Source: Devosia sediminis
GTDB taxonomy: Bacteria > Pseudomonadota > Alphaproteobacteria > Rhizobiales > Devosiaceae
Assembly (NCBI RefSeq): GCF_016411825.1
Contig: NZ_JAEKMH010000002.1
Coordinates: 186,001 to 250,000, forward strand
DNA: 64,000 nucleotides
Reading direction: 5' to 3'
Of the stretch, positions 8,683 through 26,739 are shown piece after piece. Position numbers and translations under genes: made by a program. The first letter of the stretch is position 1, and every line of letters begins with the position of its first letter. The notes under the pieces were generated by a model. It searched no databases and was not told the DNA's origin. It was given only the letters and a program-made list of their open reading frames with translations.

Positions 8683-8809
8683 CTCATCCTCCCGTCGACC
8701 CGCAAGGAATAGAGGCCATGCCCTCAAGGGGCAAGCGACGGAGCGGGCCTGCTGTCAGTGAACGGCAAGGATTGGCGCACACTACTGGCCGCGATGCGGG
8801 CGCCAGATC

Positions 8810-9169
8810 ATGCAAGACAGTAAGGTCAGATTTTTCACCGAGGCGTCCCGCGACCTCTGCCGTGCCCTCGCCGTGCTGGCACTGTTCCTCGGCATGCTGG
8901 CCGCAACCCCCGTTTCGGCCGGAGTCTATCCGGGCGGCGCGCCTCTACTCGACATCTGTGGCGAACTCTCCGACGCCGACGACACGGAGGCGCATGGCGC
9001 CTGCCACGCTTGCCGGCCGACGCCACTGATCCTGCCCACCCCGCCGGTCGTGCCGTCCATGGCATTCGGCGCACCGGCCTTCTGCCTCGTCCTCCAACCG
9101 GCGCCCGTTGTCGTCAAGGGTGTCAGGCACTCGCATGCACCGAGGGCGCCACCACCACGTCTCGCTTGA
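8810..9169 (+). CDS. DUF2946-like exported copper-operon protein
   Basis: 119 residues with an N-terminal membrane/signal segment (ALAVLALFLGMLAATPVSAG), a Cys-containing middle (LLDICGELSD, CHACRP) and a proline-rich end ARAPPP-like (RAPPPRLA). This order (signal, CxxC, short hydrophobic segment, R-A-P-P ending) is that of DUF2946 proteins, which commonly precede copper uptake or export genes. It is the first gene of the MbnP/MbnH operon, 53 bases upstream of mbnP. Function of the family is unknown; copper binding by CHAC is inference. Confidence 0.6.
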   Translation: MQDSKVRFFTEASRDLCRALAVLALFLGMLAATPVSAGVYPGGAPLLDICGELSDADDTEAHGACHACRPTPLILPTPPVVPSMAFGAPAFCLVLQPAPVVVKGVRHSHAPRAPPPRLA

Positions 9170-9222
9170 GCCATCGGCGGCACACCGCCGCCATCTCGAT
9201 CGAACCTCGTGGACCCCAACCA

Positions 9223-10086
9223 ATGAAACACGTTCTCGCGGGCGCGCTCGCGCTCATCGCCGCTGCTTTTCTCCCTGTCGCAAGCTGGGCCGAGGCGCCC
9301 GCCACCCCCGTCTCCATATTCTTTGCCGGCGAGGTCAACGGATCGCCATTTGCCTGCGGACAGACCTACGATGATCTGGGCCAGCCGCCCAGTTCCATCA
9401 CTCCCAGTGACTTCCGCTTCTACATAATGGACGTCGCCCTCATCGATGCAGGGGGAGAGGCCGTGCCGGTCACAATCGCCGAGCGCAGCCCCTGGCAGGC
9501 CGACGGCATTACCCTCATTGATTTCGAGGACGGCACCGGTCCCTGCGACGGTGGCAATCCGGGCCTTAATGATCGCATAGAGGGCCATGTGCCTGAGGGC
9601 CACTACCAAGGGCTCCGCTTCACCATGGGCCTGCCCTTTCTCGAGGCGCATGGCGACGTGACCATCGCTTCTGCGCCGCTCGATCTCAGCGCCATGTTCT
9701 GGAGCTGGCAGTCCGGCTATCGCTATCTCAAGGTCGACATGGTCGGCGACATGACCGGCGGCCACGGCGGCCGTCCCACCGGCTTTTCCGTCCATCTGGG
9801 AGATTCAGGCTGCGTCGGCCCCACCTTCAGCCAGCGTCCGGTCGGCTGCGCCCATATCAATGTCGTCAGCGGCGAATTCGCCGATTTCGACCCATCCAAC
9901 AACCGCATCGTAGCCGATCTCGGGCGTTTGCTGGCTGAAACCGACGTGGCCGCCAATACGCCCGACACGGCGCCCGGCTGCATGTCCGAAATGCATGATC
10001 CCGATTGCATCGGCGTGTTCGCCCGGCTTGGTCTCGGCTTTGTCGGTACGGCGCCGGGCCTGCAGACCTTCTTTGAAAGCCGCTGA
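9223..10086 (+). CDS. mbnP: MbnP family copper-binding protein
   Basis: 287 residues with a signal peptide cut near SWAEA. The body matches the MbnP (metallo-mystery pair) family: PFACGQTYDDLG, SDFRFYIMDVALID, a WQ...LIDFEDGTGPC segment, GHVPEGHYQGLRFTMGLPF and the aromatic motif FWSWQSGYRYLKVD (W160 and W162). In the characterised Methylosinus pair, the diheme partner MbnH converts a Trp of MbnP to kynurenine and MbnP binds copper. The mbnH gene follows one base after the stop, so the pair is intact. No methanobactin precursor gene is visible nearby, so this is a stand-alone MbnP/MbnH pair within a copper and cytochrome oxidase assembly operon. The ATG at 9223 gives the proper signal peptide. 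Confidence 0.88.
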   Translation: MKHVLAGALALIAAAFLPVASWAEAPATPVSIFFAGEVNGSPFACGQTYDDLGQPPSSITPSDFRFYIMDVALIDAGGEAVPVTIAERSPWQADGITLIDFEDGTGPCDGGNPGLNDRIEGHVPEGHYQGLRFTMGLPFLEAHGDVTIASAPLDLSAMFWSWQSGYRYLKVDMVGDMTGGHGGRPTGFSVHLGDSGCVGPTFSQRPVGCAHINVVSGEFADFDPSNNRIVADLGRLLAETDVAANTPDTAPGCMSEMHDPDCIGVFARLGLGFVGTAPGLQTFFESR

Positions 10087-10087
10087 C

Positions 10088-11212
10088 ATGCGCTGGGCCA
10101 TTGTCCTGATCCTGGGCCTTTTCGGCTTGCCCGCGCTTGTCCCCGCGGCACCCGCCGAAACGCCTTACCGCTATCCCACGCCCGATTGGGTGCCGCTCCC
10201 CGTCACGCCACCCGACAACCCCATGTCCGAGGCGAAAGTCGCGCTGGGGCGGCATCTCTTCTACGAGACCGCCCTCTCCGCCGATGGCTCCATGTCCTGC
10301 TCATCCTGCCACCACCAGGAACTGGCCTTCACCGATGGTCAGCCGACCCATGCCGGCGTTCATGGCGAGCCCGGCCTGCGCAACGCTCAGAGTCTCGCCA
10401 ATGTCGCCTACTTCCCGACCCTGACCTGGAGCAATCCCAATCTCACCCGTCTCGAGCAACAGATCCTCGTGCCGCTGTTCGGCGACCGGCCGGTGGAACT
10501 GGGCATGGCGGGACGGGAGCGGGACCTGTTCGCGGCCCTTGCCGCCAATCCCGTCTATCCCCCGCTCTTCGACGCGGCCTTCCCGGATACCGGTGGCGCG
10601 ATCGACCTGTCTTCGGTGACCAGGGGGCTGGCAGCCTTCATGCGCTCGATAATGAGCTTTTCGAGCCCCTATGACCGCTTCGTGCGCGAGGGTGATACGG
10701 CGGCCATGTCCGCGGCCGCACTACGAGGCGAGGCGCTGTTTTTCAGCGAAAAGCTCGAATGCGCCCACTGTCATGGCGGGCTGAACTTTACCGACAACAC
10801 CCACCGGCAGGGCCAGTCCTATCCGGAAACGGGCTTTCACAATACCGGCCTCTACAACCTCGATGGGGCAGGGGCCTATCCGGCTCCAAATGTCGGTCTG
10901 CGCGAGTTCACCCTCGAAAAAACCGACGAGGGCCGCTTCCGCACCCCCAGCCTGCGCAATGTCGCGGTCACCGGTCCCTATATGCACGACGGCTCCATTC
11001 CGACGCTCGAGGCGGTCATCCGCGACCACTACGCCCTGGGCGGTCGCGCCGCTTCCGGCCCGCATGGACGCAGCCCGCTGCGAGATCCCTTCATCGAGGG
11101 CTTTTCCATCACCGATGGGGAAATTGCCGACCTCGTCGCCTTTCTCGAAAGCCTCACCGACGAGGCCTTCCTTGCCGATCCTCGCTTCTCCAATCCCTTT
11201 GCCGGACAATAG
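10088..11212 (+). CDS. mbnH: MbnH diheme peroxidase-like enzyme
   Basis: 374 residues, signal peptide ending around PAAPA, then a bacterial diheme cytochrome c peroxidase (MauG/CcpA) fold. Two heme c sites are visible: CSSCH at residues 71-75 and CAHCH at 225-229. Other landmarks are GRHLFYETALSADGSMSC, LRNAQSLANVAY and RTPSLRNVAVTGPYMHDGS. By family it modifies its MbnP partner oxidatively through a high-valent bis-heme state in the periplasm. It starts one base after mbnP ends. The next gene begins two bases after its stop. Confidence 0.9.
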   Translation: MRWAIVLILGLFGLPALVPAAPAETPYRYPTPDWVPLPVTPPDNPMSEAKVALGRHLFYETALSADGSMSCSSCHHQELAFTDGQPTHAGVHGEPGLRNAQSLANVAYFPTLTWSNPNLTRLEQQILVPLFGDRPVELGMAGRERDLFAALAANPVYPPLFDAAFPDTGGAIDLSSVTRGLAAFMRSIMSFSSPYDRFVREGDTAAMSAAALRGEALFFSEKLECAHCHGGLNFTDNTHRQGQSYPETGFHNTGLYNLDGAGAYPAPNVGLREFTLEKTDEGRFRTPSLRNVAVTGPYMHDGSIPTLEAVIRDHYALGGRAASGPHGRSPLRDPFIEGFSITDGEIADLVAFLESLTDEAFLADPRFSNPFAGQ

Positions 11213-11214
11213 CC

Positions 11215-11703
11215 ATGCCTTCCCAAATCTCTCTTGCGGCGCTGCTCCTGCTTCTCGCCGGCACCGGCGTGGCCCATGCCCATGCGACGGCCGGCGGCGC
11301 CAGCGCCGGGGCAGGGCAGCCATTCACCCTGCTGCTCACCGTGCCCCATGGGTGCCAGGGCCAACCCACGACTGAAGTGGTGGTCGGCATTCCCGAAGGC
11401 TTCCTCGTGGCCGAAGGCCTGGCTGTTTCCGGCTGGACGGTATCGAGCGTAACAGCCCCACTGTCCCGCCCCTACCGCCTGAATGATCAGACGATTTCGG
11501 AGGGCGTCATCGAGATCACCTGGATCGGCGGCAGTCTGCCGGACGACGAGACGGGTGTCTTTGCCGTCCAGGGCATCTTTGCCGACGACATGGCGCCGGG
11601 GCCTGCGCGGTTTCCGCTGCTGCAGCTCTGCCCGGATGGCGAAGAAGCCTGGATCGATGCCGGCGGCGACCGACCGGCTCCCTTTGTCGACGTGCTCCCA
11701 TGA
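11215..11703 (+). CDS. YcnI-like DUF1775 copper-binding protein
   Basis: 162 residues. The signal peptide ends in AHA and would leave a mature N-terminal His (HATAGG), as in YcnI-family copper proteins, where that His helps bind the metal. The family motif VPHGCQGQPTTEVVVGIPEG is clear. It lacks the C-terminal membrane anchor of Bacillus YcnI, so it should be soluble and periplasmic. It lies between mbnH and an SCO gene, whose ATG overlaps its stop. Likely a periplasmic copper carrier. Confidence 0.85.
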   Translation: MPSQISLAALLLLLAGTGVAHAHATAGGASAGAGQPFTLLLTVPHGCQGQPTTEVVVGIPEGFLVAEGLAVSGWTVSSVTAPLSRPYRLNDQTISEGVIEITWIGGSLPDDETGVFAVQGIFADDMAPGPARFPLLQLCPDGEEAWIDAGGDRPAPFVDVLP

Positions 11704-12320
11704 TGGCCGAAAACCGCGAAGCGGCCGGCGGAAGGCGGCTACTGCAGGCCGGGCTCTGGTTGTTGATCGGCGCGGCCGCGATCATCGCAACCGCCGCCTG
11801 GTATTGGCCCGGTCAGCAAACGCTCGATATCGCCGACTATGGCGGCGGCAGCTATGCGCTGGTCGACCACAGGGGTAATCCCTTCACCCCGGAAAGCCTC
11901 ATCGGACAGCCCGCGCTTCTGTTCTTCGGCTACACCAACTGTCCCGATGTGTGTCCCATCACCCTCGGTCAGATTGCCGCTTGGTTCGAAGAGCTGGGCG
12001 CGGATGCGAAGGATGTCGGCGCCTACCTCGTCACCGTCGACCCCGCGCGCGACACCGCTCCCGCGCTGGCCGACTATCTGAGCTGGGCCGGAAACAGGGT
12101 CACGGGCGTCACCGGTTCGCCCGACCAGGTCTCCAGCCTGATGAAAGCCTGGCATGTCACGGCGGAACAGGTGCCTGGCCTCGACGGGTCCTACACCGTC
12201 GATCATACCGCCTCGGTCTTCCTGGTCGATGCCGGGGGCCGCTTTCGCGGCACCATCGCCTATCTTGAAGCCTGGGACACGGCCGTCGCCAAGCTCAGGC
12301 GCCTGGCCACCACGCCATGA
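11700..12320 (+). CDS. SCO1/SenC family copper chaperone (first copy)
   Basis: 206 residues with an N-terminal membrane anchor (LWLLIGAAAIIATAAWYW) and a thioredoxin-like domain in the periplasm. The copper ligands are intact: C81 and C85 in CPDVCP and H169 in VDHTASVF. SCO proteins deliver copper to the CuA site of cytochrome oxidase or act as thiol reductases on it. The gene overlaps both neighbours by ATGA, showing one transcript. Confidence 0.92.
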   Translation: MMAENREAAGGRRLLQAGLWLLIGAAAIIATAAWYWPGQQTLDIADYGGGSYALVDHRGNPFTPESLIGQPALLFFGYTNCPDVCPITLGQIAAWFEELGADAKDVGAYLVTVDPARDTAPALADYLSWAGNRVTGVTGSPDQVSSLMKAWHVTAEQVPGLDGSYTVDHTASVFLVDAGGRFRGTIAYLEAWDTAVAKLRRLATTP

Positions 12321-14326
12321 TGGCGCGCCTGCTCCTCACGCTGCTTGCGCTCTGGCTCCACGCGTCTCCCGCAGTGGCGCATAGCGGCCTGGTCTCCTCC
12401 GCCCCGCCCGACAATGCCCTGCTCGACAGGCCACCTGCCGAGCTGGTGCTCGATTTTACCGAGGCCGTCACGCCCCTTGTCGTGATGTTGCACCAGACCG
12501 ACGGCACCATTCTCGACCTGACCGATCGCCTGGAACCGGGGAGCAGTCTGGTGATCGATCCCGCCCCGCCCCTCGCTGAGGGAACACACGTCCTCAGTTG
12601 GCGGGTGGTTTCCGCCGACGGTCACCCGATTTCCGGTTCGCAGGTCTTTTCGGTCGGCAGGGCAAGCGCGGCGCTGCCCGAAATCGCATCCGCCGACCAT
12701 GCTGTGCTGGCCGCCATCTGGCTCGCGCGCGTCCTCGTCCTGACCACCGCCTTTGCAGTGGTGGGCGCGGCGCTGTTCAGGGGTCTCATCGCCTCATTGC
12801 CTCCCGCCATGGTGCCGATCCTGGTCGTGGCCGCCCCCATAGGCCTGTCCTCTGTTGCCCTTTCAGTCGGTCTCCAGGGCCTTGATGCCGCCGGTCTGCC
12901 CTTGACGGCAATCCTCTCGCCACGTCCATGGACCATCGGCTTCGGCACCGCCTATGGAGCCGCCCTGGTGGTCACCTTCATGGCCATCCTGCTGGGTGCC
13001 GTGTCGCTGACGCATGCGGGGCTGTTGAGCCGCGTCCTCTCCGTTGTGGCCACTCTCGCGCTGGCGGTCTCCTTTGCGATCGCCGGTCACGCCGGCACGG
13101 CCGAGCCGCAATGGCTGACCAGGCCAGCCATCGTTCTGCACATCGTGGCCCTGGTGTTCTGGCTGGGCGCGCTGCTGCCGCTTCGGGGGCATCTTGCCGC
13201 GCGAAGCCGAGAAGCGACGCTGGCTTTGTCGCGGTTTTCTGCCTTTGCGCCCTTCGCCATGGCGCCGTTGCTGCTGTCGGCCATCCTCCTCGCCGTGGCC
13301 CAACTGGGCCCGCCCGGCCGCCATTATCTCTCGGCCTATGGGGCCATATTGGGCGGCAAGCTGGTGCTTATCGGCCTGCTCCTGGCGCTCGCGGTGGTCA
13401 ACCGCTTCCGGCTGACCGGGCCGATTCTCGCGCAGGGGCCCGTCAGCGGCATGGTGCGCTCCATCCGCGCGGAAGTTGTGCTGGCGGTGCTGATCCTCGC
13501 TCTGGTGGCGGCGTGGCGATTCACCCCGCCGCCGCGGGTGCTGAGCGTGCTCTATCCGGAGCCGGCGCTTGCCCGCCTCACCGGCGGAGGCTGGCAGGCG
13601 GATGTGGCTATCGATCCGGGCGTTCCGGGCCTCGCGCTCGTCGATCTGCTCATCTCGGGCGGCAATGGTGGGCAGGAACCCCGCGACATTACCCTGTCGC
13701 TCAGCCAGCCCGAACTGGGCATCGAGCCTTTCTCGCGCCCGGCCCGCCAGGTGGCGCCGGGCCACTGGCGCGTCGAGGGGCTCAACCTGCCCACCCATGG
13801 CCAGTGGGACCTCGCGCTCGACATCCGCGCGACACGGCTGCATCGCGTCACGCTTGAGGGGCAGATAGAGCTGCGCAGCCGGTCCGGCGAAACCAGCCGC
13901 CAGCCCATCGTCGTGGCAAGCCTGGGCGACCTCCAGATCGCCGATGCCTTCAGCCGCGCCACCCTGCCCGGCGCATCGGTCGCCGGCGCCTATTTCACCA
14001 TCCTCAACACCGGCACAAAGCCGGATCGGCTGCTTGGCGCCACCACGCCCAAGGCAGCACGGATCACCGCGCATGGCATGCAGGTGGACAACCAGATCAT
14101 GCGCATGCGCCAGACCGCCGACGGCATCGACATCCCCGCCGGCGCGACCACCCGGCTCGAACCCGGAGGGCTCCACCTGATGATGGAAGATCTCGTCGAA
14201 CCGGTCGTCGAGGGGGAGACGGTCCCGATCACCCTGACCTTCGAGACCTCCGGCACGGTCACTGTCAATCTCGAAGTGCTGGGCTTTGCCGCCGACGGCT
14301 TTGCCAGTCACGAACAACACCCATGA
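12317..14326 (+). CDS. CopC-CopD-PCuAC fusion, copper uptake and delivery protein
   Basis: 669 residues combining modules usually on separate genes. Signal peptide to residue 21, then a CopC domain (22-115) with the mature N-terminal His22 and DGHPISGSQVFSVG; a CopD membrane domain with about eight helices (125-405); a periplasmic linker domain of beta type (about 410-525); and a PCuAC domain (about 536-660) with H586, M597, H620 and M622 in the HX10MX22HXM pattern. CopC binds periplasmic Cu(II), CopD imports copper, and PCuAC hands Cu(I) to SCO or the oxidase. The fusion therefore joins capture, transport and delivery. It overlaps the SCO genes on both sides by four bases. Confidence 0.88.
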   Translation: MMARLLLTLLALWLHASPAVAHSGLVSSAPPDNALLDRPPAELVLDFTEAVTPLVVMLHQTDGTILDLTDRLEPGSSLVIDPAPPLAEGTHVLSWRVVSADGHPISGSQVFSVGRASAALPEIASADHAVLAAIWLARVLVLTTAFAVVGAALFRGLIASLPPAMVPILVVAAPIGLSSVALSVGLQGLDAAGLPLTAILSPRPWTIGFGTAYGAALVVTFMAILLGAVSLTHAGLLSRVLSVVATLALAVSFAIAGHAGTAEPQWLTRPAIVLHIVALVFWLGALLPLRGHLAARSREATLALSRFSAFAPFAMAPLLLSAILLAVAQLGPPGRHYLSAYGAILGGKLVLIGLLLALAVVNRFRLTGPILAQGPVSGMVRSIRAEVVLAVLILALVAAWRFTPPPRVLSVLYPEPALARLTGGGWQADVAIDPGVPGLALVDLLISGGNGGQEPRDITLSLSQPELGIEPFSRPARQVAPGHWRVEGLNLPTHGQWDLALDIRATRLHRVTLEGQIELRSRSGETSRQPIVVASLGDLQIADAFSRATLPGASVAGAYFTILNTGTKPDRLLGATTPKAARITAHGMQVDNQIMRMRQTADGIDIPAGATTRLEPGGLHLMMEDLVEPVVEGETVPITLTFETSGTVTVNLEVLGFAADGFASHEQHP

Positions 14327-14955
14327 GCACGTCCATGACCCTTCTCCGCATCGCCCGGTTTGCACTCTGGTCCAGCGTCCTCGTCGTTGGCACAGCGACC
14401 GCCACGCTCTACCTCGTCCGCCCCGCACCCCAACTGCAAGCCGCGGCTGTGGTCAGCAATGGGCAATCCTCGCTGGGCAAGGCTCCCTACGAACTCGTCG
14501 ACACGCGCGGCAATGCGTTCAATCCGCAGGTCATGACCGGCGCGCCGACGCTCCTGTTCTTCGGCTTCACCCAATGTCCCGATATCTGTCCCACCAGCGT
14601 GGCCGATATCATGCTCTGGTACGAGCAACTCGGCGAGGAGGCGGCGGACTTGCGCAGCTACTTCGTCACCATCGACCCGGAACGCGACACCTATCGTCGG
14701 ATTGCCGAATACCTGTCCTGGACCAAGCGGATCGTCGGCGTCACCGGCACGCCCGAGGAAATTGCGGCCGTCGCGGCATCATGGGGCGTCCACTACGAAA
14801 AGATCTCCGAGCCCGATGGCGGCTACACCATGGATCACACCTCCGCCGTCTACCTGATCGACCGGCAGGGCGAGTTCGTCACCTTCATCAGCTATGGCGA
14901 AGAGACATCCGTGGCGGTCGAAAAGCTCCGTTCATTCCTGAGGTCGCAGCCATGA
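14323..14955 (+). CDS. SCO1/SenC family copper chaperone (second copy)
   Basis: 210 residues with an N-terminal anchor helix and a periplasmic thioredoxin fold. Copper ligands C85 and C89 (CPDICP) and H172 (MDHTSAVYLID) are present. It differs clearly from the copy three genes upstream, so the two are not a recent duplication. Its start overlaps the CopCD-PCuAC stop and its stop overlaps the ctaG start. Two SCO proteins in one operon may separate copper loading from thiol reduction. Confidence 0.92.
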   Translation: MSTSMTLLRIARFALWSSVLVVGTATATLYLVRPAPQLQAAAVVSNGQSSLGKAPYELVDTRGNAFNPQVMTGAPTLLFFGFTQCPDICPTSVADIMLWYEQLGEEAADLRSYFVTIDPERDTYRRIAEYLSWTKRIVGVTGTPEEIAAVAASWGVHYEKISEPDGGYTMDHTSAVYLIDRQGEFVTFISYGEETSVAVEKLRSFLRSQP

Positions 14956-15509
14956 TCCTCGATCGATCGGTCCAGCCCGCATCAACGACCTCCCTGCATC
15001 ACCGCAACCGCCGCACCTTCCGCCTTCTCTTGTGTGGCGCGACTGGCATGCTCGGATTGGCGTTTCTCGCCGTGCCACTCTATGGGCTCTTCTGCTCGGT
15101 GACCGGCTATGGCGGCACGCCGGGCCAGTCTGAAGGCAACGTGAAGGGCGTGGTGGATCGCCCGATCACCGTCAGCTTCGACGCCAATATCGATCGGGGC
15201 CTACCTTGGGCAATACGGCGCGCCGATCCGGTGACCAGCAGGATCGGCAGCGTCGAAGTGGTCAATTATCGGGCCACCAACCTCTCCGATCAGCCGGTTA
15301 CGGGCATGGCGGTGTTCAACGTCACGCCGGATCGCGCCGGCTATTACTTCAACAAGGTCGAGTGCTTCTGCTTTACCGAGCAGACCCTCCAGCCCGGGGA
15401 GACGCTCGATATGCCCATTCAGTTCTTCGTCGATCCCGATTTCGCCGGAAACCCCGAGCTCGACACTATCGGCGAGATCACGCTGTCCTACACCTTCTAT
15501 CGCAAGTAA
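14952..15509 (+). CDS. ctaG: Cytochrome c oxidase assembly protein CtaG/Cox11
   Basis: 185 residues: a short cytosolic N-terminus, one membrane helix (LLLCGATGMLGLAFLAVPLYGLFC) and a periplasmic beta domain with the Cu(I) motif CFCF at 138-141 and GYYFNKVECFCFTEQ. Cox11 inserts CuB into subunit I of aa3 oxidases. Usually the gene sits in the ctaC-ctaD operon; here it is at the end of a copper-handling operon, so it may be a second copy for a special oxidase. Oxidase structural genes are not in this window. Confidence 0.93.
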   Translation: MILDRSVQPASTTSLHHRNRRTFRLLLCGATGMLGLAFLAVPLYGLFCSVTGYGGTPGQSEGNVKGVVDRPITVSFDANIDRGLPWAIRRADPVTSRIGSVEVVNYRATNLSDQPVTGMAVFNVTPDRAGYYFNKVECFCFTEQTLQPGETLDMPIQFFVDPDFAGNPELDTIGEITLSYTFYRK

Positions 15510-15579
15510 TGAGATGCGAAGTGTCAGCTTCCAGTCAGCCGGATAAGGGACCCTGCCGCCTCAACTGAGGACGGTACAC

Positions 15580-15951
15580 ATGAAGCGCATGACGTTGATG
15601 GCGGTCTTGGCCGCATTGTGGGCCGGCCCCACCCAGGCCTGCGACCAGGCCTTGCAGGCAAAGGCCGACGAGATATTTCAGGCACGGTGCAGCTCCTGCC
15701 ACAATGACCGGGCGCGGATTTCCGGGCTCTCCCTGGCTGAGGGTGGCGCTGCGCTCATCGGCCAGGCCAGCACGCAGGTATCTGGCATGGAGAGGATCGC
15801 GCCCGGCGACCCTGAAAACAGCTACGTGTTCAGGAAAATCATGGGCACGCATGCCGATGTCGGTGGCAGTGGGTCGCGCATGCCGATAGGTCCTGCTCTC
15901 GGCGACACGCAACTGGCCGACATCGAGCAATGGATCCGTTCCTGCCAATAA
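15580..15951 (+). CDS. Small periplasmic cytochrome c
   Basis: 123 residues with a signal peptide ending TQACDQ. One heme site CSSCH (residues 37-41) and a Met ligand region (SRMPIG) near residue 101 make it a class I-like monoheme cytochrome. It follows ctaG by 70 bases on the same strand and probably ends the copper operon; it could feed or drain electrons for MbnH. It faces the response regulator gene tail-to-tail, eight bases apart. Confidence 0.85.
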   Translation: MKRMTLMAVLAALWAGPTQACDQALQAKADEIFQARCSSCHNDRARISGLSLAEGGAALIGQASTQVSGMERIAPGDPENSYVFRKIMGTHADVGGSGSRMPIGPALGDTQLADIEQWIRSCQ

Positions 15952-15959
15952 CCGGGCCG

Positions 15960-16637
15960 TCAGGTATCGTCGATGAGATAACCAACGCCGCGCACCGGGT
16001 GGATCACCGCCCCGGCGTCGAGCAGGGACAGCCGCTTCCGCAATCGCGAGACATGGGCTTCGAGCGTATTGGAGCTCGGTTCCTCGCCAAAGCCGTAGAC
16101 GGCTTCGATGAGCAGTTCACGCGTGACCACCCTGCGGCAACGGAGCAGCAGGCTTTCGATGATCAGCAATTCGCGCCGCCGCAGATGCAGCACGTCTTCG
16201 CCCACCCGCACTTCGCGGGTGTCCGGATGGTAGGTGATCCGGCCGCAGGTGATCGGTTGCACGCTGCGCCCGGCCAACCGGGTCCGCCGCAATGCCGCGC
16301 GGATGCGGGCGCGCAATTCATCCCAGTCGAATGGTTTTGGCAGGTAGTCGTCGGCACCGGCGTCCAGACCTTCGATCCTGGCATCGGCCGACCCCATTGC
16401 ACTGAGCACAAGCACGCTTGCCTGCGGCTGCAGCGCATGGACCTCGCGCAACAGGCTGATGCCATCGCCATCGGGCAGGCGGCGGTCGAGCAGAATCAGG
16501 GCGTAGCGGACCAGCTTGAGGGCCGCCGAGGCTTCGTCCAGCCGCTCTGTCCGGTCCACCACCAGCCCCTGGTCCTGCAACTCCCGCTGCAGGCGGCCCG
16601 CCAGGTCGGACTGGTCTTCGACGAGCAGCACTCTCAT
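15960..16637 (-). CDS. OmpR-family response regulator
   Basis: 225 residues. The receiver domain has the acidic pair E7/D8 (LLVEDQS), phospho-acceptor D51 (ALILLDRRLPD) and the KP lysine in DDYLPKPFD. The C-terminal winged helix carries RELLIIESLLLRCRRVVTRELL and VSRLRKRL. It is transcribed away from the histidine kinase gene, with a 13-base palindrome between them. The position beside the copper operon suggests it may control that operon, as CopR/CusR types do, but this is inference. Confidence 0.93.
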   Translation of the reverse strand: MRVLLVEDQSDLAGRLQRELQDQGLVVDRTERLDEASAALKLVRYALILLDRRLPDGDGISLLREVHALQPQASVLVLSAMGSADARIEGLDAGADDYLPKPFDWDELRARIRAALRRTRLAGRSVQPITCGRITYHPDTREVRVGEDVLHLRRRELLIIESLLLRCRRVVTRELLIEAVYGFGEEPSSNTLEAHVSRLRKRLSLLDAGAVIHPVRGVGYLIDDT

Positions 16638-16776
16638 GGGACGTCATCCTCCATTCCGTCAGGCACCGACATGTCTACCACAAGGCGATCGGGGATCATG
16701 ACGAAGCTGGCAATGCCTGCCGAAAGAATGGGGCATGTCCGTGCCCTCCGGTAGTCGCCTGCCGACATAACCGCGC

Positions 16777-16789
16777 ATGCAAGTTGCAT
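16777..16789. promoter_or_regulatory. Palindrome ATGCAAGTTGCAT, candidate operator
   Basis: A six-base arm ATGCAA, one central G, and TTGCAT. It lies between the divergent response regulator and kinase genes. A nearly identical 16-base palindrome occurs upstream of the aac(3)-like gene at 18.7 kb, which makes a shared regulator plausible. Confidence 0.5.
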
Positions 16790-16865
16790 CTTGCTGACAG
16801 CGGCAAGACCTGTTCCCATCGCGCTGCCCGTCGGGCGCGCATTGTTTGCCGAGCGAGGCTTCCCA

Positions 16866-18215
16866 GTGAGTTCTCCGAAAAGCCTGGCCCAGCGCCTGAT
16901 CAAGGGCATCGTCATCGCGCAGGCGGTGACGCTGACAGTCTGGGTGCTGATCGTCATGGTGGTCTCGCCCTACATTTCATACGAGGAACTGGCTGCGTTC
17001 TCGGCCAAGCAGGTGGTCGCCTCGGCGGTCGAAATGCGCGACGGCGCCCTGGTCGTTGCCCAGACGGGCGACCTGGCCGAATATGTGCAGCGAAGACCGG
17101 GCTTTGCCTTTGCCGTGCTGGTCGCGGGATCGCCTATCGAGGGGTCGTCACCCGAGCTTGCCGGGCGCTGGGCAACCTCTGCGGCGCCCCTGCCGATTTC
17201 GGGACAGTTCCGCTTCGCCGATGGGCTGATCGGCTACGCGCAGCAACTCCCCTGGAGGCAGTCGACCGTGACCGTTGTCACCGTTGGCAACCAGTTTCGC
17301 ATCGACGATCTGCCCGTGTTCTTCCAGATCTATCTTCCGCAATTCCTGCTGATGTTCGCCCCGGCATTCCTGGCAGGCGCAATCGCCACGCAGATGGTGG
17401 TGGTGCGCGCCCTGCGGCCGCTACGCGCGGCGTCTGCCCAGGCTGCCGCCGTGCAACTGTCCTCGCTCACCTCGCGGCTGGAGCGCGACAGCACGCTGCC
17501 CTCCGAGATCGTGCCGCTGATCGACGCCATCAATGAGCTGCTGGAGCGCCTCGACGGCGAGATCGGCAAGCAGCGCCTGTTTGCCGCCAATGCCGCCCAC
17601 GAGTTGCGCACGCCCGTTGCCGTGCTCGGCGCCCGCGTGGAAAGCCTGCCCGATGGTCCCGAGCGCATTGCTTTGCGGCGCGACGTCATGCAGCTCTCGA
17701 CCCTTGTCGATCAATTGCTGGCGGCGGCGCGGCTCGAAAACGATCCGGCCCAGGTCAACCTGCCCGTCGATCTCGTCCACACGACGCGCCAGGTGATTGC
17801 CGACATGGCGCCCCTCGCACTGCGCGACGGGCGCAATCTGTCCTTCCGCACTAGGCCGAGTGCAGCACTGGTCCTGGGCGATTGCGATGCCATCGCTTCC
17901 ATGGTGCGGAACGTCCTGGACAATGCGCTGCGGGTCGAACCGGTCGGCGGCACGGTGGCGGTGCAGGTCACCCAGGGCGAGGATCACTTCGCCATCCTCG
18001 TTCACGATCATGGCCCCGGTATTTCCTCCGAGGATCAGGCCCATATGTTCGATGCCTTCTGGCGCAAGCGGCAGGATAGCGGAGCAGGGTTGGGCCTGCA
18101 GATTTCCCGTCAGATCGCCATGGCCCATGGCGGCACCATCACCTGCGACAGCCGGATGGGCGCCGGATCGACATTCAGGATCAGCTTGCCCTTTCCGCCG
18201 GCAGGCATGTCCTAG
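16866..18215 (+). CDS. Sensor histidine kinase
   Basis: 449 residues from the GTG at 16866 (MSSPKSLAQRL); a longer frame from 16791 is open but less like a kinase N-terminus. A first membrane helix (GIVIAQAVTLTVWVLIVMVV), a periplasmic sensor of about 110 residues, a second helix (YLPQFLLMFAPAFLAGAIAT), then HAMP-like sequence, the H-box with H245 (HELRTP), N-box (NVLDNALR) and G-boxes (HDHGPGIS, GAGLGLQIS). No obvious Cys- or His-rich copper site is seen in the sensor part. Its last 35 bases overlap the convergent SRPBCC gene. Confidence 0.9.
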   Translation: MSSPKSLAQRLIKGIVIAQAVTLTVWVLIVMVVSPYISYEELAAFSAKQVVASAVEMRDGALVVAQTGDLAEYVQRRPGFAFAVLVAGSPIEGSSPELAGRWATSAAPLPISGQFRFADGLIGYAQQLPWRQSTVTVVTVGNQFRIDDLPVFFQIYLPQFLLMFAPAFLAGAIATQMVVVRALRPLRAASAQAAAVQLSSLTSRLERDSTLPSEIVPLIDAINELLERLDGEIGKQRLFAANAAHELRTPVAVLGARVESLPDGPERIALRRDVMQLSTLVDQLLAAARLENDPAQVNLPVDLVHTTRQVIADMAPLALRDGRNLSFRTRPSAALVLGDCDAIASMVRNVLDNALRVEPVGGTVAVQVTQGEDHFAILVHDHGPGISSEDQAHMFDAFWRKRQDSGAGLGLQISRQIAMAHGGTITCDSRMGAGSTFRISLPFPPAGMS

Positions 18216-18615
18216 AGGCGGCCCATTTTGCAAAATTGTCCAGGTTGCCGCTGACGATTTTGCCCAGCAGCGGGCGCAGGAGCCGGGGCGCCGAAAATTC
18301 GATCCGCGTCTCCAGAATGGTGCCATGATCGGCCGGCACGATGACATACGACCAGTAGCCGGCCATGACGCCGCGTTCATATTCATAGTCGAGCTGGTAC
18401 GGACGGTTGTATTGGCGCACCACGCCGTCGATCGGGAAATACCACGAGCCGATCACGGCATCCTGCGTGAACCGCGTCTCCTGACCCAGAGGGCCCGGCG
18501 ACAGAAGCCGGGCGCTGCGGATCGTGGGGATCCAGTGTGGAATGGCGGCAATATCGGTGAGGGCGTTAAACACCCGCACCGGATCGGCGTCGATAGGGTT
18601 GGTCTTGTGAAACAT
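18181..18615 (-). CDS. SRPBCC family protein
   Basis: 144 residues with the polyketide-cyclase/dehydrase-like START fold pattern: ADPVRVFNALTDIAAIPHWIPTI, a beta-rich middle (YQLDYEYERGVMAGYWSYVI) and a long C-terminal helix. Such proteins bind hydrophobic ligands; the function here is unknown. It overlaps the kinase gene end by 35 bases on the opposite strand. Confidence 0.8.
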   Translation of the reverse strand: MFHKTNPIDADPVRVFNALTDIAAIPHWIPTIRSARLLSPGPLGQETRFTQDAVIGSWYFPIDGVVRQYNRPYQLDYEYERGVMAGYWSYVIVPADHGTILETRIEFSAPRLLRPLLGKIVSGNLDNFAKWAASRTCLPAERAS

Positions 18616-18701
18616 CGCATCGGTCTCCAGACCGCATGCACCTAGCCGGAGCGGATTGCTTCAATCTGACAGGCGCAAACACTGGAAGCTGCCGTCAGCC
18701 C

Positions 18702-18717
18702 GATGCAAGCTTGCATC
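18702..18717. promoter_or_regulatory. 16-bp perfect palindrome upstream of aac(3)-like gene
   Basis: GATGCAAGCTTGCATC is fully self-complementary and ends 36 bases before the chosen start of the acetyltransferase gene, where an operator is expected. TATAGG follows it directly and could be a -10 element, which would put the palindrome in the promoter spacer. It shares ATGCAAG...TTGCATC with the palindrome at 16.8 kb. Confidence 0.55.
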
Positions 18718-18753
18718 TATAGGCCGATGAAAGTGTCGAATGGGGAGGCCGTC

Positions 18754-19581
18754 ATGCTCTTGGAGCAAAAAGAACTTGGCGCTGACGACTTCGTCGCTCA
18801 GTTGCGCTCACTCGGCGTTGTCGAGGGTGACCGGTTGATGGTCCATGCCTCCATGAAAGCGCTCGGGCCGATGACCGGCGGCGCGATGGGGGTGGCCGAG
18901 GGCCTGCTTGCCGCCGTCGGCCCTTCCGGAACTCTCATGGCCTATGTGTCCTGGGATCACTCGCCCTATGAAGAGACCCTGGGCGGCGCCAGCATGACCA
19001 TTGCAGAACGGGACGCCTGGCCGGTCTTCGACCCGGCGGATGCGCCGCCCTATTCCGGCTGGGGTATCCTCAACACCTATCTGCTGCGCCTGCCGGGTGC
19101 CCGGCGCAGCGGCAATCCCGATGCCTCCATGGCCGCCGTGGGCAAGGATGCCGACTACCTTATCGCCGACCACCCCCTCGGCACCGGCTATGGCCCGGGC
19201 AGCCCGCTGGAGCGCTTCGTGAAGCTTGGCGGCAAAGTGCTAATGCTTGGCGCGCCGCTCGATTCCGTCACTCTGCTTCACTACACCGAAGCTGTGGCTG
19301 ATATCCCCGGCAAGCGCTGGGTGACCTATGAAGTCCCGGTGCTCCGGGACGGGCGCAAATCCTGGGAAATGGTGCGCGAGCTGGATTCCAACGGCATCAT
19401 CGATGTTTATGCGCGCGAGGGTGAACCCGACGCAGTCGAGACCATCGCGACAGCCTATGTTGCCGAGGGTCGCCACCGGGAGGGAAGGGTCGGCCAGGCA
19501 CACTGCTACCTTTTCGACGCCACCGACCTGCACAAATTCGGCCTCGACTATCTCGAAACTCGGCACGGGAGCGGCCAATGA
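18754..19581 (+). CDS. Aminoglycoside N(3)-acetyltransferase family protein
   Basis: 275 residues. The antibiotic N-acetyltransferase fold is clear from DRLMVHASMKALGP near the N-terminus, GTLMAYVSWDHSPYEET, FDPADAPPYSGWGILNTYLL, SMAAVGKDADYLIADHPL, GPGSPLERFVKLGGKVLMLG and DSVTLLHYTEA. The family transfers acetyl from acetyl-CoA to the 3-amino group of 2-deoxystreptamine drugs; some members act on other amines. Two upstream ATGs (18703, 18727) are in frame; 18754 was taken because GGGGAGG lies before it. The next gene overlaps the stop by ATGA. Confidence 0.85.
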   Translation: MLLEQKELGADDFVAQLRSLGVVEGDRLMVHASMKALGPMTGGAMGVAEGLLAAVGPSGTLMAYVSWDHSPYEETLGGASMTIAERDAWPVFDPADAPPYSGWGILNTYLLRLPGARRSGNPDASMAAVGKDADYLIADHPLGTGYGPGSPLERFVKLGGKVLMLGAPLDSVTLLHYTEAVADIPGKRWVTYEVPVLRDGRKSWEMVRELDSNGIIDVYAREGEPDAVETIATAYVAEGRHREGRVGQAHCYLFDATDLHKFGLDYLETRHGSGQ

Positions 19582-20168
19582 AATTGTCCATGCGCCTCAT
19601 TGCGGCGGCCTTTGTGCTGACGGCCGCCACGGCCAGCGCAGCCGACATCGTCATCGTCGGAGACAGCACCGGCAAGGGCGACGGCGCGCAGACAAGCTGG
19701 GCCACCCGCCTCCTCGAAAAGCTCGACGGCGAGTATCAGGTAGAAAACCTCTCCCGCAGCCGCAATTCCATGGCAGCCATCCTCAAATCGCTCGAAACGC
19801 TGCCGGGCGGCGAGGAGCGCGTGGTGATCCTATATGACCGCCGGAATGCGGGCGAGAGCGTGGACGAATACATGGCGAGCCTCGCCGAGGCCAAGGCGAA
19901 GATCGGCGACGATCGCTTGCTGATCCTGCCCCAGGTGCCGGTCTCGGGCGGGCGTGAAGATGGCCTGACATTGCCTGTATTGCTGGGCATCAACGAGCGC
20001 CTGTTGACGGAATTCCCGGAGAACAGTTTCGACGCGGAGGTCCAGGCCGCGTTCCTCGAAGCGCTGGCAGGAGACGAGACCCGGTCTGACCGTATCCACC
20101 GCAACGATGTCGGCCAGGAAATCGAGGCCGGGTTCATTGCCGACTGGCTGCAACAGGCCGAAGATTGA
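19578..20168 (+). CDS. Exported SGNH/GDSL-type hydrolase-like protein
   Basis: 196 residues with a signal peptide ending TASAA. The SGNH pattern is present but reduced: the nucleophile block GDSTGKGDG, an N-containing block (LSRSRNSM) and a DxxH pair (DRIHRND) near the C-terminus. Such enzymes are periplasmic esterases or lipases with broad substrates. Its ATG overlaps the acetyltransferase stop, so it is cotranscribed with it. Confidence 0.7.
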   Translation: MKLSMRLIAAAFVLTAATASAADIVIVGDSTGKGDGAQTSWATRLLEKLDGEYQVENLSRSRNSMAAILKSLETLPGGEERVVILYDRRNAGESVDEYMASLAEAKAKIGDDRLLILPQVPVSGGREDGLTLPVLLGINERLLTEFPENSFDAEVQAAFLEALAGDETRSDRIHRNDVGQEIEAGFIADWLQQAED

Positions 20169-20190
20169 GATGACGGGCAGGGGAGGCGAC

Positions 20191-20388
20191 GTGGATACCA
20201 TTGCCGACTATCAGGAATTCATTGCCATGGCGTCGGACGGTGACATTGCCCTCCCTGCCATCGAGGATGCTTTGGCTTCGGCCCGCCAGCGGCTGGAAGA
20301 CGCCCAGGCCGCCAACCGGGATTTTGGCGACTGGCAGCACCTCGTGGTGCAGATCGAAGCCCTGATCGACGATCTGACCAAGGCCTGA
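20191..20388 (+). CDS. Small hypothetical protein
   Basis: 65 residues from a GTG preceded by GGGAGGCGAC; an ATG seven codons upstream (20170) is an alternative. The sequence is acidic and helical (LPAIEDALASARQRLEDAQAANRDFGD), with no known motif. It lies between two same-strand genes and fits the operon spacing, so it is probably real. Confidence 0.5.
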   Translation: MDTIADYQEFIAMASDGDIALPAIEDALASARQRLEDAQAANRDFGDWQHLVVQIEALIDDLTKA

Positions 20389-20398
20389 TGCACCGCCA

Positions 20399-21301
20399 AT
20401 GACTGTCGACATCACCCAGGACCTCGTCGCCGCGCTGCTCCGCGAGCAGCATCCCGACCTGGCGCACCTGCCGCTGGCCCTCGGCGCCGTTGGCTGGGAC
20501 AACCAGTTGTGGCGTCTGGGCGACGACCTCGCGGTTCGCCTGCCTTGGCAGACCGACGATGCCGATGAATTGCTGCTCAAGGAATATGGTCTAGTGCCGG
20601 CCTTGGCATCCAGACTGCCGCTGCCGATTCCGACGCCCATGCGGCTCGGCCGGCCCAGCGAACGGTTTGGGCGCACCTGGATCGTCACCACCTGGGTTGA
20701 GGGAGAGCCTGCAGATAGGGCGCCAGTGACTCCGGGTGCAGGCGGGGAGACCGCATTGGCCGCATTCCTGTCGGCGCTCCACCGGCCTGCTCCCCCCGAC
20801 GCGCCAATTGGCCGTCACGGCCGGGGCGGGTCTCTCGCGGCCACCAGCCAGGGCGTCGCGCATTTTCTCCGCCTTGCCGTCGAGCGTGGGCTGATACACG
20901 ACGCACGCACCCTTGAGACCATATGGGGAGATGCGGCGAGCGCCCCGGATTGGAGCGGACCACCCATCTGGATCCATGCCGATCTTCATCCCGCCAACGT
21001 CCTGACCCGCGACGGCGCCCTTTGTGGCGTCATCGATTTTGGCGACCTCTGCGCGGGCGATCCGGCCTGCGACCTCGCCGCCGCCTGGTTGCTGCTCCCT
21101 GATGGTGCCACGGACAGCTTCTATCGCGCCTGTGAGCCGGGTCCAGACGAAGCGACGAGGCGACGCGCTCGCGGCTGGGCCCTGAGCAAGGCGCTCGTTT
21201 GCCTCATCATCGGCGATGACGGGACACATGGCCGCCCCGGCGGCAAACCGAGTTGGGGGCAGCCCGCCGCAGCCGCCCTGAAGCGGCTGGCGGCTCTCTG
21301 A
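20399..21301 (+). CDS. Aminoglycoside phosphotransferase family protein
   Basis: 300 residues with the APH kinase fold: an N-lobe ATP site (AVGWDNQLWRLGDDLAVRLPW), the hinge segment IVTTWVEGEPADR, the catalytic loop IHADLHPANVLTRDG and the metal-binding GVIDFGDLCAGDPACDLA. It phosphorylates small molecules; the aminoglycoside name is a family label and the natural substrate is unknown. It closes a cluster with the AAC(3)-like gene and faces the alcohol dehydrogenase gene tail-to-tail. Confidence 0.88.
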   Translation: MTVDITQDLVAALLREQHPDLAHLPLALGAVGWDNQLWRLGDDLAVRLPWQTDDADELLLKEYGLVPALASRLPLPIPTPMRLGRPSERFGRTWIVTTWVEGEPADRAPVTPGAGGETALAAFLSALHRPAPPDAPIGRHGRGGSLAATSQGVAHFLRLAVERGLIHDARTLETIWGDAASAPDWSGPPIWIHADLHPANVLTRDGALCGVIDFGDLCAGDPACDLAAAWLLLPDGATDSFYRACEPGPDEATRRRARGWALSKALVCLIIGDDGTHGRPGGKPSWGQPAAAALKRLAAL

Positions 21302-21325
21302 GGTCGGGGAGCAGCTACCGGCAGA

Positions 21326-22507
21326 TCAGGCGACGCCGCCGGGCTTGAGCACCACCTTGGTCCACTCGTTCTGCTTGTCGTGGAAGTTCTTGTAGCCTTC
21401 GGGGGCCTCTTCCAAGGACAGCCGGTGGCTGATCAGGAAAGTCGTGTCGATCTCGCCATCCTGGATACGGCGCAGGAGGTCGGCCGTGTATTTTTGCACA
21501 TGGGTTTGGCCGCCCTTGATCTGAATGCCCTTTTCCATCATCGCGCCCAGCGGCCATTTGTCGAGCATGCCGCCATAGACGCCGGGCACCGAAACGCGGC
21601 CGCCCTTGCGGACGGCCAGCAGCGCCTGGCGCAGCGCATGGCCGCGATCCGCGCCGGGAGCCATCTTCTGCTTGATGACGTCGAGCACATTGTCGGCCAC
21701 CCAGCCATGGGCCTCCATGCCGACAGCATCGATCACCGCGTCTGGACCAATGCCGCCGGTCATTTCCATCAGTGCTTCGCGGACATGGGTCTCCTCGAAG
21801 TTGATGATCTTGGCGCCGAATTTCTGCGCCAGTTCGAGGCGGCGCGGGAAGTGATCGATGGCGATGACCTGGGCGGCGCCCATCAGTACGGCACTTTGCA
21901 CCGCAAAGAGCCCGACGGGCCCCGCGCCCCAGACGGCGACCGTGTCGCCAGGCTGGATCTGCGCATTCTCCGCCGCCATCCATCCGGTGGGCAGGATGTC
22001 AGAAAGAAACAGCACGTCGTCATCCGCCATACCATCGGGAATGACGATGGGCCCGACATCGGAGAACGGCACGCGCACATACTCGGCCTGTCCCCCGGCA
22101 TAGCCACCTGTCAGGTGCGAATAGCCGAAAGCCGCGCCCATGGGCTGGCCATAGAGCATTTCCGAGGCGTCCTGATTGACGACCGGATTGCCGTTGTCAC
22201 AGGCCGAATACTGCTGCTGTTCGCAGAAGAAGCACTTGCCACAGGAAATGGTGAAAGGCACGACCACGCGTTGGCCCTTTTGCAGCGTGCTCTTGGGACC
22301 CACTTCCACGACTTCGCCCATGAATTCATGGCCCAGAATGTCGCCCGACTTCATGCCGGGGATCACCCCGTCATAAAGGTGCAGGTCCGAGCCGCAAATG
22401 GCGGTCGAGGTCACCTTGAGGATGGCGTCGCGGGGATTGATGATTTCTGGGTCGGGATGCGTATCGACGCGGACGTCGTTGGTTCCATGCCAGGTCAGCG
22501 CGCGCAT
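21326..22507 (-). CDS. Zinc-dependent alcohol dehydrogenase (FDH-like)
   Basis: 393 residues. Medium-chain dehydrogenase with catalytic zinc region ([24 protein letters not shown]), the four-Cys structural zinc loop ([15 protein letters not shown]) and the NAD fold [16 protein letters not shown] with acidic IDHFPRR at the end of the second strand. The length and [12 protein letters not shown] segment match the glutathione-independent formaldehyde dehydrogenase-like subgroup. The ATG shares a base with the stop of the upstream SRPBCC gene (TGATG). It is the last gene of the stress operon. Confidence 0.9.
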
Positions 22508-23058
22508 CAAACTTCTCCGTCAGTCGAATTGGTGTAGGCTCCGGTGGCGACTTCTCCCGCTTCCATCAATTGCTTGAAGCGCTTGAGTTCGTGCCGGGCC
22601 TGAATGTTGGGTTCAGCCTGGAACAGTTTGGCGATCAGCCGGCCGACATCGCCGCCCGGCGGCTCATAGGCAATCTCTGCCGTCACGATGGTGCCGCGTC
22701 CGGCCGGCGCATCGGTGAAGGTGACATGGCCGGTGGTCTTGATCTGCGAGTGCTCGGTCGAACGCCAGCCGATAGCCTCGTTCTCGATCACGTCGACCAG
22801 TTCGGTCTCCAGCGTCACATGCTGGCCGGCCGGTGCCTTGATTGTCCAGGTCGATCGTTCGCCGTCACCTATCGCCACGCTCTCGACGGCATGCATGAAG
22901 GTCGGCAGTTTGGTGAAATCCCGCCAATAGGCGAAGAGTTCACTGCGCGGCCGGTTGATCAGGACGCTGCGGCCGACAATGGCATAGTCCCCGTCCTTGT
23001 CGTCGCGCTGCGCCCGCTTAGGAGCGTCGTCATGTGTCTGGTCGTGTGCCATCGACAT
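22507..23058 (-). CDS. SRPBCC family protein (cyclase/dehydrase-like)
   Basis: 183 residues. An acidic N-terminal tail is followed by a START-like domain: [30 protein letters not shown], a beta-rich core, and a C-terminal helix ([16 protein letters not shown]). This is the YlxX/CoxG-type polyketide-cyclase pattern often paired with alcohol dehydrogenases in rhizobial stress operons. AAGGTG precedes the ATG. Likely a lipid or small-molecule binding protein, role unproven. Confidence 0.8.
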
Positions 23059-23094
23059 GCACCTTTTTTGGATTTGTCATGGGTGGAGAGGGAA

Positions 23095-23113
23095 GGGGAG
23101 GCCAAGCCTCCCC
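23095..23113 (-). other. Intercistronic hairpin in the stress operon
   Basis: GGGGAGGC, a three-base loop, GCCTCCCC: eight perfect pairs between the DUF3618 and SRPBCC genes, without a following T-run. It could slow exonuclease decay or cause partial termination between the two halves of the operon. Confidence 0.5.
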
Positions 23114-23120
23114 CTCGCCA

Positions 23121-24266: not shown

Positions 24267-24685
24267 CACAGCCTCTCCTTGACGATATCAGCATCCCGCC
24301 CGAGCGAAGCTGCGGTGCGGTTCATGTTGAGATTGGTTGCCTTGAGGGCGTTGAGGCCCTTTGAGATGAAGCTCCAGCCAACAAGGCCCACGACCACCGT
24401 GACGATCACGGCAGCCAGTGCGTTGGCGAAGGTCGGGTCCATGCCCATGTTGATGAGGAATGCCGCGATCAGCGTGACGACCGCGGCGAGGAAGACGCCG
24501 AGCGCGCCGAGCGCCAGCACGCCGCCGATGGCAATCGAGCTGATTGCGCCGGTGGCTTCCGAAACCTTTTCCGAAGCTTCCACCTTGGCAAGTTGCACTT
24601 CCTTGCGGAAGAGCGTCGAAATATCGCTGACAAGGCCGCCGAGCAGATCGGCAATGGGCCTGTTTTCACCGGTGGCGGCCATCAT
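24266..24685 (-). CDS. Phage holin superfamily (DUF1469-type) membrane protein
   Basis: 139 residues: an amphipathic N-terminus (DISTLFRKEVQLAKVEASEKV) and two transmembrane helices (SSIAIGGVLALGALGVFLAAVV and ANALAAVIVTVVVGLVGWSF). This matches the Phage_holin_3_6/YqjE-type family, which are chromosomal membrane proteins and not phage genes. It is translationally coupled to both neighbours and normally accompanies DUF3618 proteins, as here. Confidence 0.88.
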   Translation of the reverse strand: MMAATGENRPIADLLGGLVSDISTLFRKEVQLAKVEASEKVSEATGAISSIAIGGVLALGALGVFLAAVVTLIAAFLINMGMDPTFANALAAVIVTVVVGLVGWSFISKGLNALKATNLNMNRTAASLGRDADIVKERL

Positions 24686-25305: not shown

Positions 25306-25352
25306 CTTTGAACTCCTGAAGGAGGGCCAGGGCTGGCCAGTTAGGCATGGTC

Positions 25353-25377
25353 AATGGCTCGGGTCCGAAACGGTTCC
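25353..25377 (-). promoter_or_regulatory. Candidate EcfG promoter, proximal
   Basis: Minus strand GGAAC-N16-CATT, one mismatch from the EcfG consensus in the -10 element. Transcription would start near 25346, giving a leader of about 40 bases to the stress-operon start. It is the same form as the element near 7.15 kb. Confidence 0.55.
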
Positions 25378-25489
25378 GAAATTATTCAATGACTTCAATT
25401 GGTTGTGTAGGCGCATAGAGAGCCCTCCGCGACCGCGTGACGGTGCGGGGAACGAAGTGGTCCGGGTTTACGGCGTTCCGCTTGGCCGC

Positions 25490-25514: not shown

Positions 25515-25584
25515 CCGCATTCTCCAGTTTGTCGGCAACCTAGCGGGCGACGAACCGTTGGCCGCTCACACAAGGAGAGCCGAC

Positions 25585-26664: not shown

Positions 26665-26739
<75 letters not shown>

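Follow-up and report, generated by a model that had tools for sequence, protein, structure and literature searches.

What does an MbnP/MbnH pair do in a bacterium without methanobactin genes? This question is raised by a 64,000-nucleotide stretch of Devosia sediminis DNA (contig NZ_JAEKMH010000002.1, positions 186,001 to 250,000 of the forward strand; G000:C9:186001-250000 of a 4.09 Mb genome), the whole of which is called the window here, in which the two genes stand in a row of nine that opens with a small open reading frame (ORF) and ends with a cytochrome c gene. As far as we know, the role of the pair outside methanotrophs has been poorly tested. The answer argued for here is that the nine genes are likely an accessory operon for copper starvation that would serve to load heme-copper oxidases; this answer is built from sequence, in which gene identities, diagnostic residues, the motif of the leader peptide, gene order and location are observed.

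Gene identities were judged from Pfam and NCBIfam profile scores against curated cut-offs. MbnP of the window scores 244.6 bits for TIGR04052 (cut-off 140) and matches the solved structure PDB 7l6g (E-value 5e-42), whose deposition title names a metallo-mystery pair four-Cys protein, and MbnH scores 461.1 bits for TIGR04039 (cut-off 362.85) and matches PDB 6e1c (E-value 9.7e-99); both solved proteins we take to come from Methylosinus trichosporium. MbnP carries a WxW motif at positions 160/162, His 143, His 191 and six Cys, and in an alignment of 113 rows, window included, W160 is present in 110, W162 in 109, H143 in 110 and H191 in 111. MbnH carries CxxCH at 71–75 and 225–229 together with Y298 and H300; none of 108 rows, again with the window included, varies at the Cys and His of these motifs, at Y298 or at H300, and position 114 is Trp in 105 of them. 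By score, WxW and the conserved His and Cys, the first protein is a member of the TIGR04052 family, and by score and two CxxCH motifs the second is a member of TIGR04039. An earlier reading of this DNA, made from the letters alone (the sequence-only reading), had called both proteins intact and had pointed to W160 and W162 of MbnP; Trp is indeed found at both positions, and the residues that the presumed conversion of Trp to kynurenine (Kyn) would need, including H143, H191 and both heme motifs, are in place. The pair is clearly homologous to the solved proteins and shares WxW and both heme motifs with them, whereas it does not lie beside methanobactin genes and has A142 rather than Asn next to the conserved His.

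By analogy with CorA, whose copper site has two His and a Kyn in the second coordination sphere (PMC3912023), H143, H191 and the first Trp would form the copper site of MbnP. CorA/CorB and MopE/SACCP of methanotrophs have a Kyn copper site beside a MauG-like di-heme gene and are copper-repressed (PMC3912023). However, CorA has WxH, as we read Kyn62/His64, in place of the WxW of MbnP, CorA and MopE/SACCP are surface proteins, and the available sections of PMC3621798 describe MbnP as not markedly similar in sequence to them. A divergent MbnP-like protein (L031/L199) has WPA in place of WxW and no His at the NH position, with no MbnH found within 9 kb; its Kyn site may have been lost.

The control of the operon is read from its first gene, whose product carries CHAC, 43 residues, RAPP and a 4-residue tail. 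The published signature of the leader peptide CruR is a CXXC and a C-terminal RAPP separated by 45 residues, within one or two (PMC9426467), and the spacing found here falls in this range. The sequence-only reading had described this ORF as DUF2946-like, which is borne out by the published CXXC...RAPP signature of that family but not by its Pfam profile; Pfam and NCBIfam gave no match, and up to an E-value of 10 only an irrelevant one at 0.49. Because PF11162 gave mostly weak matches over 41 genomes (9/41 over the cut-off), the published motif was used instead, and because PF11162 does not match the leader, it is named CruR-type here rather than filed under the Pfam family.

In the available account of CruR, the nascent chain stalls at RAPP without copper and transcription proceeds, while copper leads to Rho-dependent termination (PMC9426467). 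RAPP-dependent translation arrest of B. pertussis CruR has been described in vitro (PMC12992588), and a cruR homologue heads a copper-starvation-induced operon for oxidase biogenesis in Bradyrhizobium (PMC9426467). Since the leader of the window carries the CXXC-43-RAPP of CruR, a switch that is off when copper is present is the likeliest form of control. A stretch richer in C than in G at 9030–9107, among the strongest, falls within the 3' half of the leader gene and is a possible Rho-utilisation region. The sequence-only reading had proposed MbnP as a copper store or sensor; as a candidate sensor, the CruR-type leader is the better one.

Leaders of this type recur at other MbnP loci. The set searched was 80 named loci, the best 80 of 268 confirmed relatives and hence a biased set, all oriented with MbnP on the + strand. 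The strict pattern (CXXC, 40–47 residues, RAPP, tail of 2–6) gave 35 matches on the MbnP strand and none on the opposite one, and a relaxed pattern allowing RGPP gave 54 against 1, compared with a total of 4 relaxed matches when the 80 loci were triplet-shuffled five times. A relaxed match was found at 30/80 loci, and a strict one at 25/80, no more than 6.5 kb upstream of the MbnP end.

The D. sediminis genome has a second CruR-type leader (CHGC-44-RAPP; L040 9561–9905, − strand), which lies upstream of another ctaG copy (C11). It also has a second cluster (C10) with the order RAPP-ended ORF-ycnI-copCD-pcuAC-sco. A RAPP-ended small ORF lies just upstream in 6/7 YcnI-CopCD clusters (six from congeners and the one on C10); these small ORFs (L038 8894–9388; L041–L045) fit a looser pattern only, without CXXC, and the one in the D. 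sediminis genome has CPAS at the expected CXXC place, so this sub-group may have a different metal site.

Behind the leader, every gene named by the sequence-only reading was recovered by Pfam and NCBIfam matches in the order given, all on the + strand of the window (Table 1). That reading had also held that most genes share stop and start bases and form one transcript. Four of the eight junctions are indeed 4-base overlaps and two are gaps of 1–2 bases; the other two are true gaps, 53 nt between cruR and mbnP and 70 nt between ctaG and the cytochrome c gene, and a single transcript for the nine genes is likely. No relative of the small c-type cytochrome was found in 89 loci searched. No Rfam family reached its gathering score in 8000–20000, and a scan for promoters and terminators gave no useful signal, with 1 and 7 sites found where 1.3 and 5.5 were expected. 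Outside the operon, the window holds another SCO-family ORF at 59449–60048 (− strand).

Table 1. Coordinates of the operon, the genes after it and the accessory block, in window positions
Feature	Position	Strand	Remarks
cruR-type leader ORF	8810..9169	+	119 aa; hydrophobic N-terminus (by eye); CHAC 65–68, RAPP 112–115
leader-mbnP intergenic region	9170..9222	+	53 nt
mbnP	9223..10086	+	287 aa; TIGR04052
mbnH	10088..11212	+	374 aa di-heme enzyme; TIGR04039
ycnI (DUF1775), periplasmic copper-binding protein	11215..11703	+	PF07987
SCO family protein A	11700..12320	+	PF02630
CopC-CopD-PCuAC fusion	12317..14326	+	669 aa, single frame; PF04234, PF05425, PF04314
SCO family protein B	14323..14955	+	PF02630
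CtaG/Cox11, CuB insertion factor	14952..15509	+	PF04442, 171.6 bits (cut-off 25)
small c-type cytochrome (CSSCH)	15580..15951	+	PF00034/PF07635; starts 70 nt past ctaG
OmpR-type response regulator	15960..16637	-	PF00072, PF00486; convergent with operon; neighbour
sensor histidine kinase	16791..18215	+	PF02518, PF00512; TTG start, later start possible; neighbour
accessory block holding the operon	8728..26664	.	between SMP-30 gene (7765–8727) and tRNA-Thr (26665–26739)

The claim that the pair stands here without methanobactin genes was checked over the whole genome for MbnB only, where PF05114 gave 0 matches at an E-value of 0.01. To this extent it holds, but such an absence is not remarkable in the light of the available sections of two papers: the pair has been described as conserved "far beyond" methanobactin producers (PMC3621798, 2013), and MbnPH-like genes have been described with SCO (ScoC), PCuAC, YcnI and CopC in copper operons headed by DUF2946/cruR (PMC9426467, 2022).

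The later genes of the operon point to the oxidases. The 669-residue fusion protein gave 11 hydropathy windows, merged by hand to 8 membrane spans; because there are eight spans, its CopC and PCuAC ends are predicted to lie on the same, periplasmic side. A full-length one-chain CopC-CopD-PCuAC was found in the D. sediminis genome only, both among 61 genomes and among 385 (the latter searched at an E-value of at most 1e-40 with at most 3 candidates scored per genome), and among the MbnP loci compared the one-frame form was found in the window only. CtaG has three copies in the genome; the operon copy shares 70% identity with the C11 paralogue and 65% with the CtaG of the cta operon, a canonical oxidase operon on C9. 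The genome encodes heme-copper oxidase subunit I three times, and these three genes are candidate targets for the operon.

A mechanism can be proposed from what is known of the named families, by which Kyn formation, Cu(I) binding, leader control and oxidase loading are inferred. Translation would begin with the leader peptide. Under copper scarcity, the ribosome would stall at the C-terminal RAPP and transcription would run on, whereas copper bound to the CXXC of the leader would relieve stalling, and transcription would probably end early, ahead of mbnP. The genes expressed under starvation would then span the route from periplasmic capture to cofactor insertion: MbnH would oxidise W160 of MbnP to Kyn and so make MbnP bind Cu(I) with high affinity, copper would also be bound by YcnI and CopC, CopD may carry it across the inner membrane, and PCuAC (fused to CopC-CopD), the two SCO proteins and CtaG would load CuA and CuB of the heme-copper oxidases. 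A transfer of copper from MbnP to YcnI, PCuAC or SCO is a guess only. A more far-reaching proposal, which we put forward tentatively and consider rather unlikely as a whole, is a transferable "capture-to-insertion" kit for respiratory copper, in which one leader-controlled transcript would encode a Kyn-type Cu(I) scavenger, a single CopC-CopD-PCuAC chain passing copper internally from uptake to chaperone, and a dedicated SCO/CtaG set for CuA and CuB.

How unusual the operon is depends on what surrounds MbnP elsewhere. Among the D. sediminis genome and 60 relatives, MbnP was found in 1/61, namely D. sediminis itself, with 0/36 congeners and 0/24 others of the order. With the same genome counted, MbnP was found in 11/385 genomes of a draw from the class and in 20/398 of a draw from the phylum, 16 of the latter over the cut-off. 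Neighbours were counted with profiles seeded on the window proteins, which may miss divergent relatives, and many of the loci are short contigs. Within 4 kb of MbnP at the 80 named loci, MbnH was found at 79, PCuAC at 40, SCO at 5, CopC at 3, CopD at 1, YcnI at 1 and CtaG at 0. Apart from the window, the even draws yielded 10 loci from the class and 19 from the phylum (4/19 below the TIGR04052 cut-off). MbnH was nearby in 9/10 and 16/19, and a CXXC-RAPP/RGPP leader preceded MbnP on its strand in 5/10 and 2/19, respectively. Within the DNA stretches compared, CtaG was found at 0/109 other MbnP loci (the 80 named, 9 from the class draw, its tenth being the same place as L118, 19 from the phylum draw and 1 plasmid), and the only CtaG matches were those of the window, L039 and L040. 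In the MbnH tree, the window protein forms a long branch of its own (0.62), far from any close relative, and the tree points to no donor lineage.

Two loci come closest. In another genome of the class (L225) the order is leader-MbnP-MbnH-YcnI-CopCD-PCuAC, much the same gene set in the same order save the first SCO, with CopCD and PCuAC as separate genes. On a plasmid of Paracoccus seriniphilus (L184) much the same set also occurs, as a RAPP-ended ORF without CXXC, MbnP, MbnH, a PCuAC domain, PCuAC and two SCO genes, with no CopCD found. Unlike the operon of the window, neither has CtaG in the stretch compared. Because these two clusters are so similar, the operon is counted as a fuller example of a known set: it is an unusually complete example of gene sets already in print. 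It resembles the CruR-headed operons (cruR-bfrG-bp2921 of B. pertussis; PMC9426467) in a leader that stands first and has the expected distance between CXXC and RAPP, and in shared downstream copper-acquisition families. It differs from those described in the available sections of that paper in that neither a TonB-dependent transporter nor PepSY_TM is among its Pfam matches, in a shorter gap and a leader missed by Pfam, and in the addition of CtaG, a cytochrome c and the CopC-CopD-PCuAC fusion. No paper on MbnPH combined with CtaG, the triple fusion and an accessory block was found in the literature searched, subscription papers being mostly outside its reach.

The public annotation "MbnP family copper-binding protein" stands on 9/11 plasmid homologues. 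On the Paracoccus plasmid, the gene at L184 10780–11949 is annotated as a methanobactin MATE exporter (MbnM), yet it encodes an MbnH-like di-heme protein; the label is probably a misannotation.

The word accessory refers to the position of the operon. In the window, the SMP-30 gene and tRNA-Thr are 17.9 kb apart. The left flank (SDR, OmpA, PRC-barrel, SMP-30) is kept in 8/8 congener regions, of which four (G001, G010, G004, G024) have an empty site, with SMP-30 about 45–85 bp from tRNA-Thr and murA beyond; G001 is the nearest congener by SMP-30 (84–85% identical). Of the others, G447 has a different insert of about 9.6 kb between the two genes, G008 has a partial tRNA-Thr-like sequence with no match to the right flank of the window before its contig ends, and in G003 and G033 neither tRNA-Thr nor a right-flank match was found in the region compared. 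The interval looks like a variable site in the genus. No exact repeat of at least 14 bases at the tRNA-Thr edge, as an attachment repeat would be, recurs elsewhere in the window, and no integrase was found among the larger plausible ORFs of the block scanned against Pfam. Gain of the block rather than repeated loss is favoured because four sites are cleanly empty, one of them in the nearest congener, but it is not certain, since neither an attachment repeat nor an integrase was found. The same block holds an Antibiotic_NAT gene (PF02522, 18703–19581) and an APH-type phosphotransferase gene (PF01636, 20399–21301), both from families with many functions.

Several points weigh against a copper-starvation operon for oxidase loading. 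Expression, copper binding and the mass change at Trp are all predicted, from sequence alone. PF11162 does not recognise the leader even at an E-value of 10, and a search of the whole genome with it gave 2 matches, neither over the cut-off and neither at the leader. The gap behind the leader is 162 nt in B. pertussis, and long gaps are described as usual (PMC9426467), compared with 53 nt here; CutF-like leaders with short gaps can act oppositely, copper turning the gene on (PMC9973294). MbnP has A142, beside the conserved H143, where 111/113 rows have Asn, and the second-sphere position of Kyn in CorA makes the analogy for the copper site loose. Finally, the linkage of MbnPH to copper chaperones is common in some groups (many Burkholderiales) but not general, because only 5/29 loci of the even draws (2/10 class, 3/19 phylum) have a copper partner (PCuAC, CopC/CopD, YcnI or SCO) within 9 kb of MbnP, a count made with profiles that were seeded on the window proteins and may miss divergent relatives, at loci many of which are on short contigs.

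The short gap would also suit the opposite sign of control, in which copper bound to the leader prolongs stalling, frees the mbnP start from mRNA structure and switches the operon on when copper is in excess, for tolerance or buffering. Such control has been described for R. capsulatus CutF, and gaps are mostly short among the CutF-like leaders treated in the available sections (PMC9973294); the gap of the window holds a GGCGG/CCGCC hairpin, and the predicted fold puts the bases upstream of mbnP in a stem. However, the fold between leader and mbnP is no better than those of shuffles (z −1.05), the leader combines CXXC and RAPP like CruR instead of having the CxxxC of CutF, the downstream genes serve uptake and oxidase assembly rather than detoxification, and the Bradyrhizobium operon headed by a cruR homologue is induced by starvation (PMC9426467). 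Positive control of the CutF kind is regarded as improbable.

The sequence-only reading had instead placed the operon next to "its own two-component system"; on this view the system would sense copper and control the operon, with MbnP as the store or sensor. Regulator and kinase genes do follow the operon directly in the same accessory block, and the NCBIfam family that the kinase matches best is TIGR01386, that of the heavy-metal sensor kinases. However, the 145.9 bits of this match are half of the cut-off of 292.55, and the regulator gene runs opposite to the operon, converging on the cytochrome gene, and the kinase gene diverges from that of the regulator. Metal-binding residues in the periplasmic sensor domain are a feature of the heavy-metal sensor kinases (CusS/CzcS/SilS/CopS), and among the 122 residues of the periplasmic stretch of this kinase there is 1 Met but neither His nor Cys, so that the kinase departs from TIGR01386 in both score and sensor residues. 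Its best match in 40 congeners is 34% identical over its length, with up to 39% in the kinase core among the matches listed. Regulators at other MbnPH loci are 27–42% identical to that of the window over aligned parts (the best relative, at L065, 40% over 222 residues), and regulators and kinases together reach no more than about 42%. As a conserved partner of MbnPH the system was rejected, no close relative having been seen at other MbnPH loci or in congeners among the matches listed. Because of the strand layout, the low identities and the sensor stretch free of His and Cys, it is treated as a neighbour that shares the accessory block. With a leader-type copper sensor already at the head of the operon, control by these two genes is judged quite unlikely. 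That the whole block is horizontally carried cargo, unexpressed or unneeded in its host and owing its likeness to copper operons to its donors, would fit the four empty sites and the isolated branch of MbnH, but none of the nine frames is interrupted, the catalytic and ligand residues are intact, and the GC content of the block resembles that of its flanks; this we consider very improbable.

Read as a starvation-induced operon for loading heme-copper oxidases, the locus has several consequences. The leader signature gives a sharp prediction of the sign of control, which the sequence-only reading lacked, and the one-chain CopC-CopD-PCuAC offers a way to examine direct hand-over of copper from a membrane protein to a chaperone. 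If the capture-to-insertion proposal were true, the oxidases of a host that had gained the block would work at copper levels at which congeners with the ordinary YcnI-CopCD-PCuAC-SCO module may fail. With MbnPH in one compact CruR-type-led operon, in an organism without methanobactin genes, a role of the pair in supplying copper to oxidases would be open to ordinary deletions.

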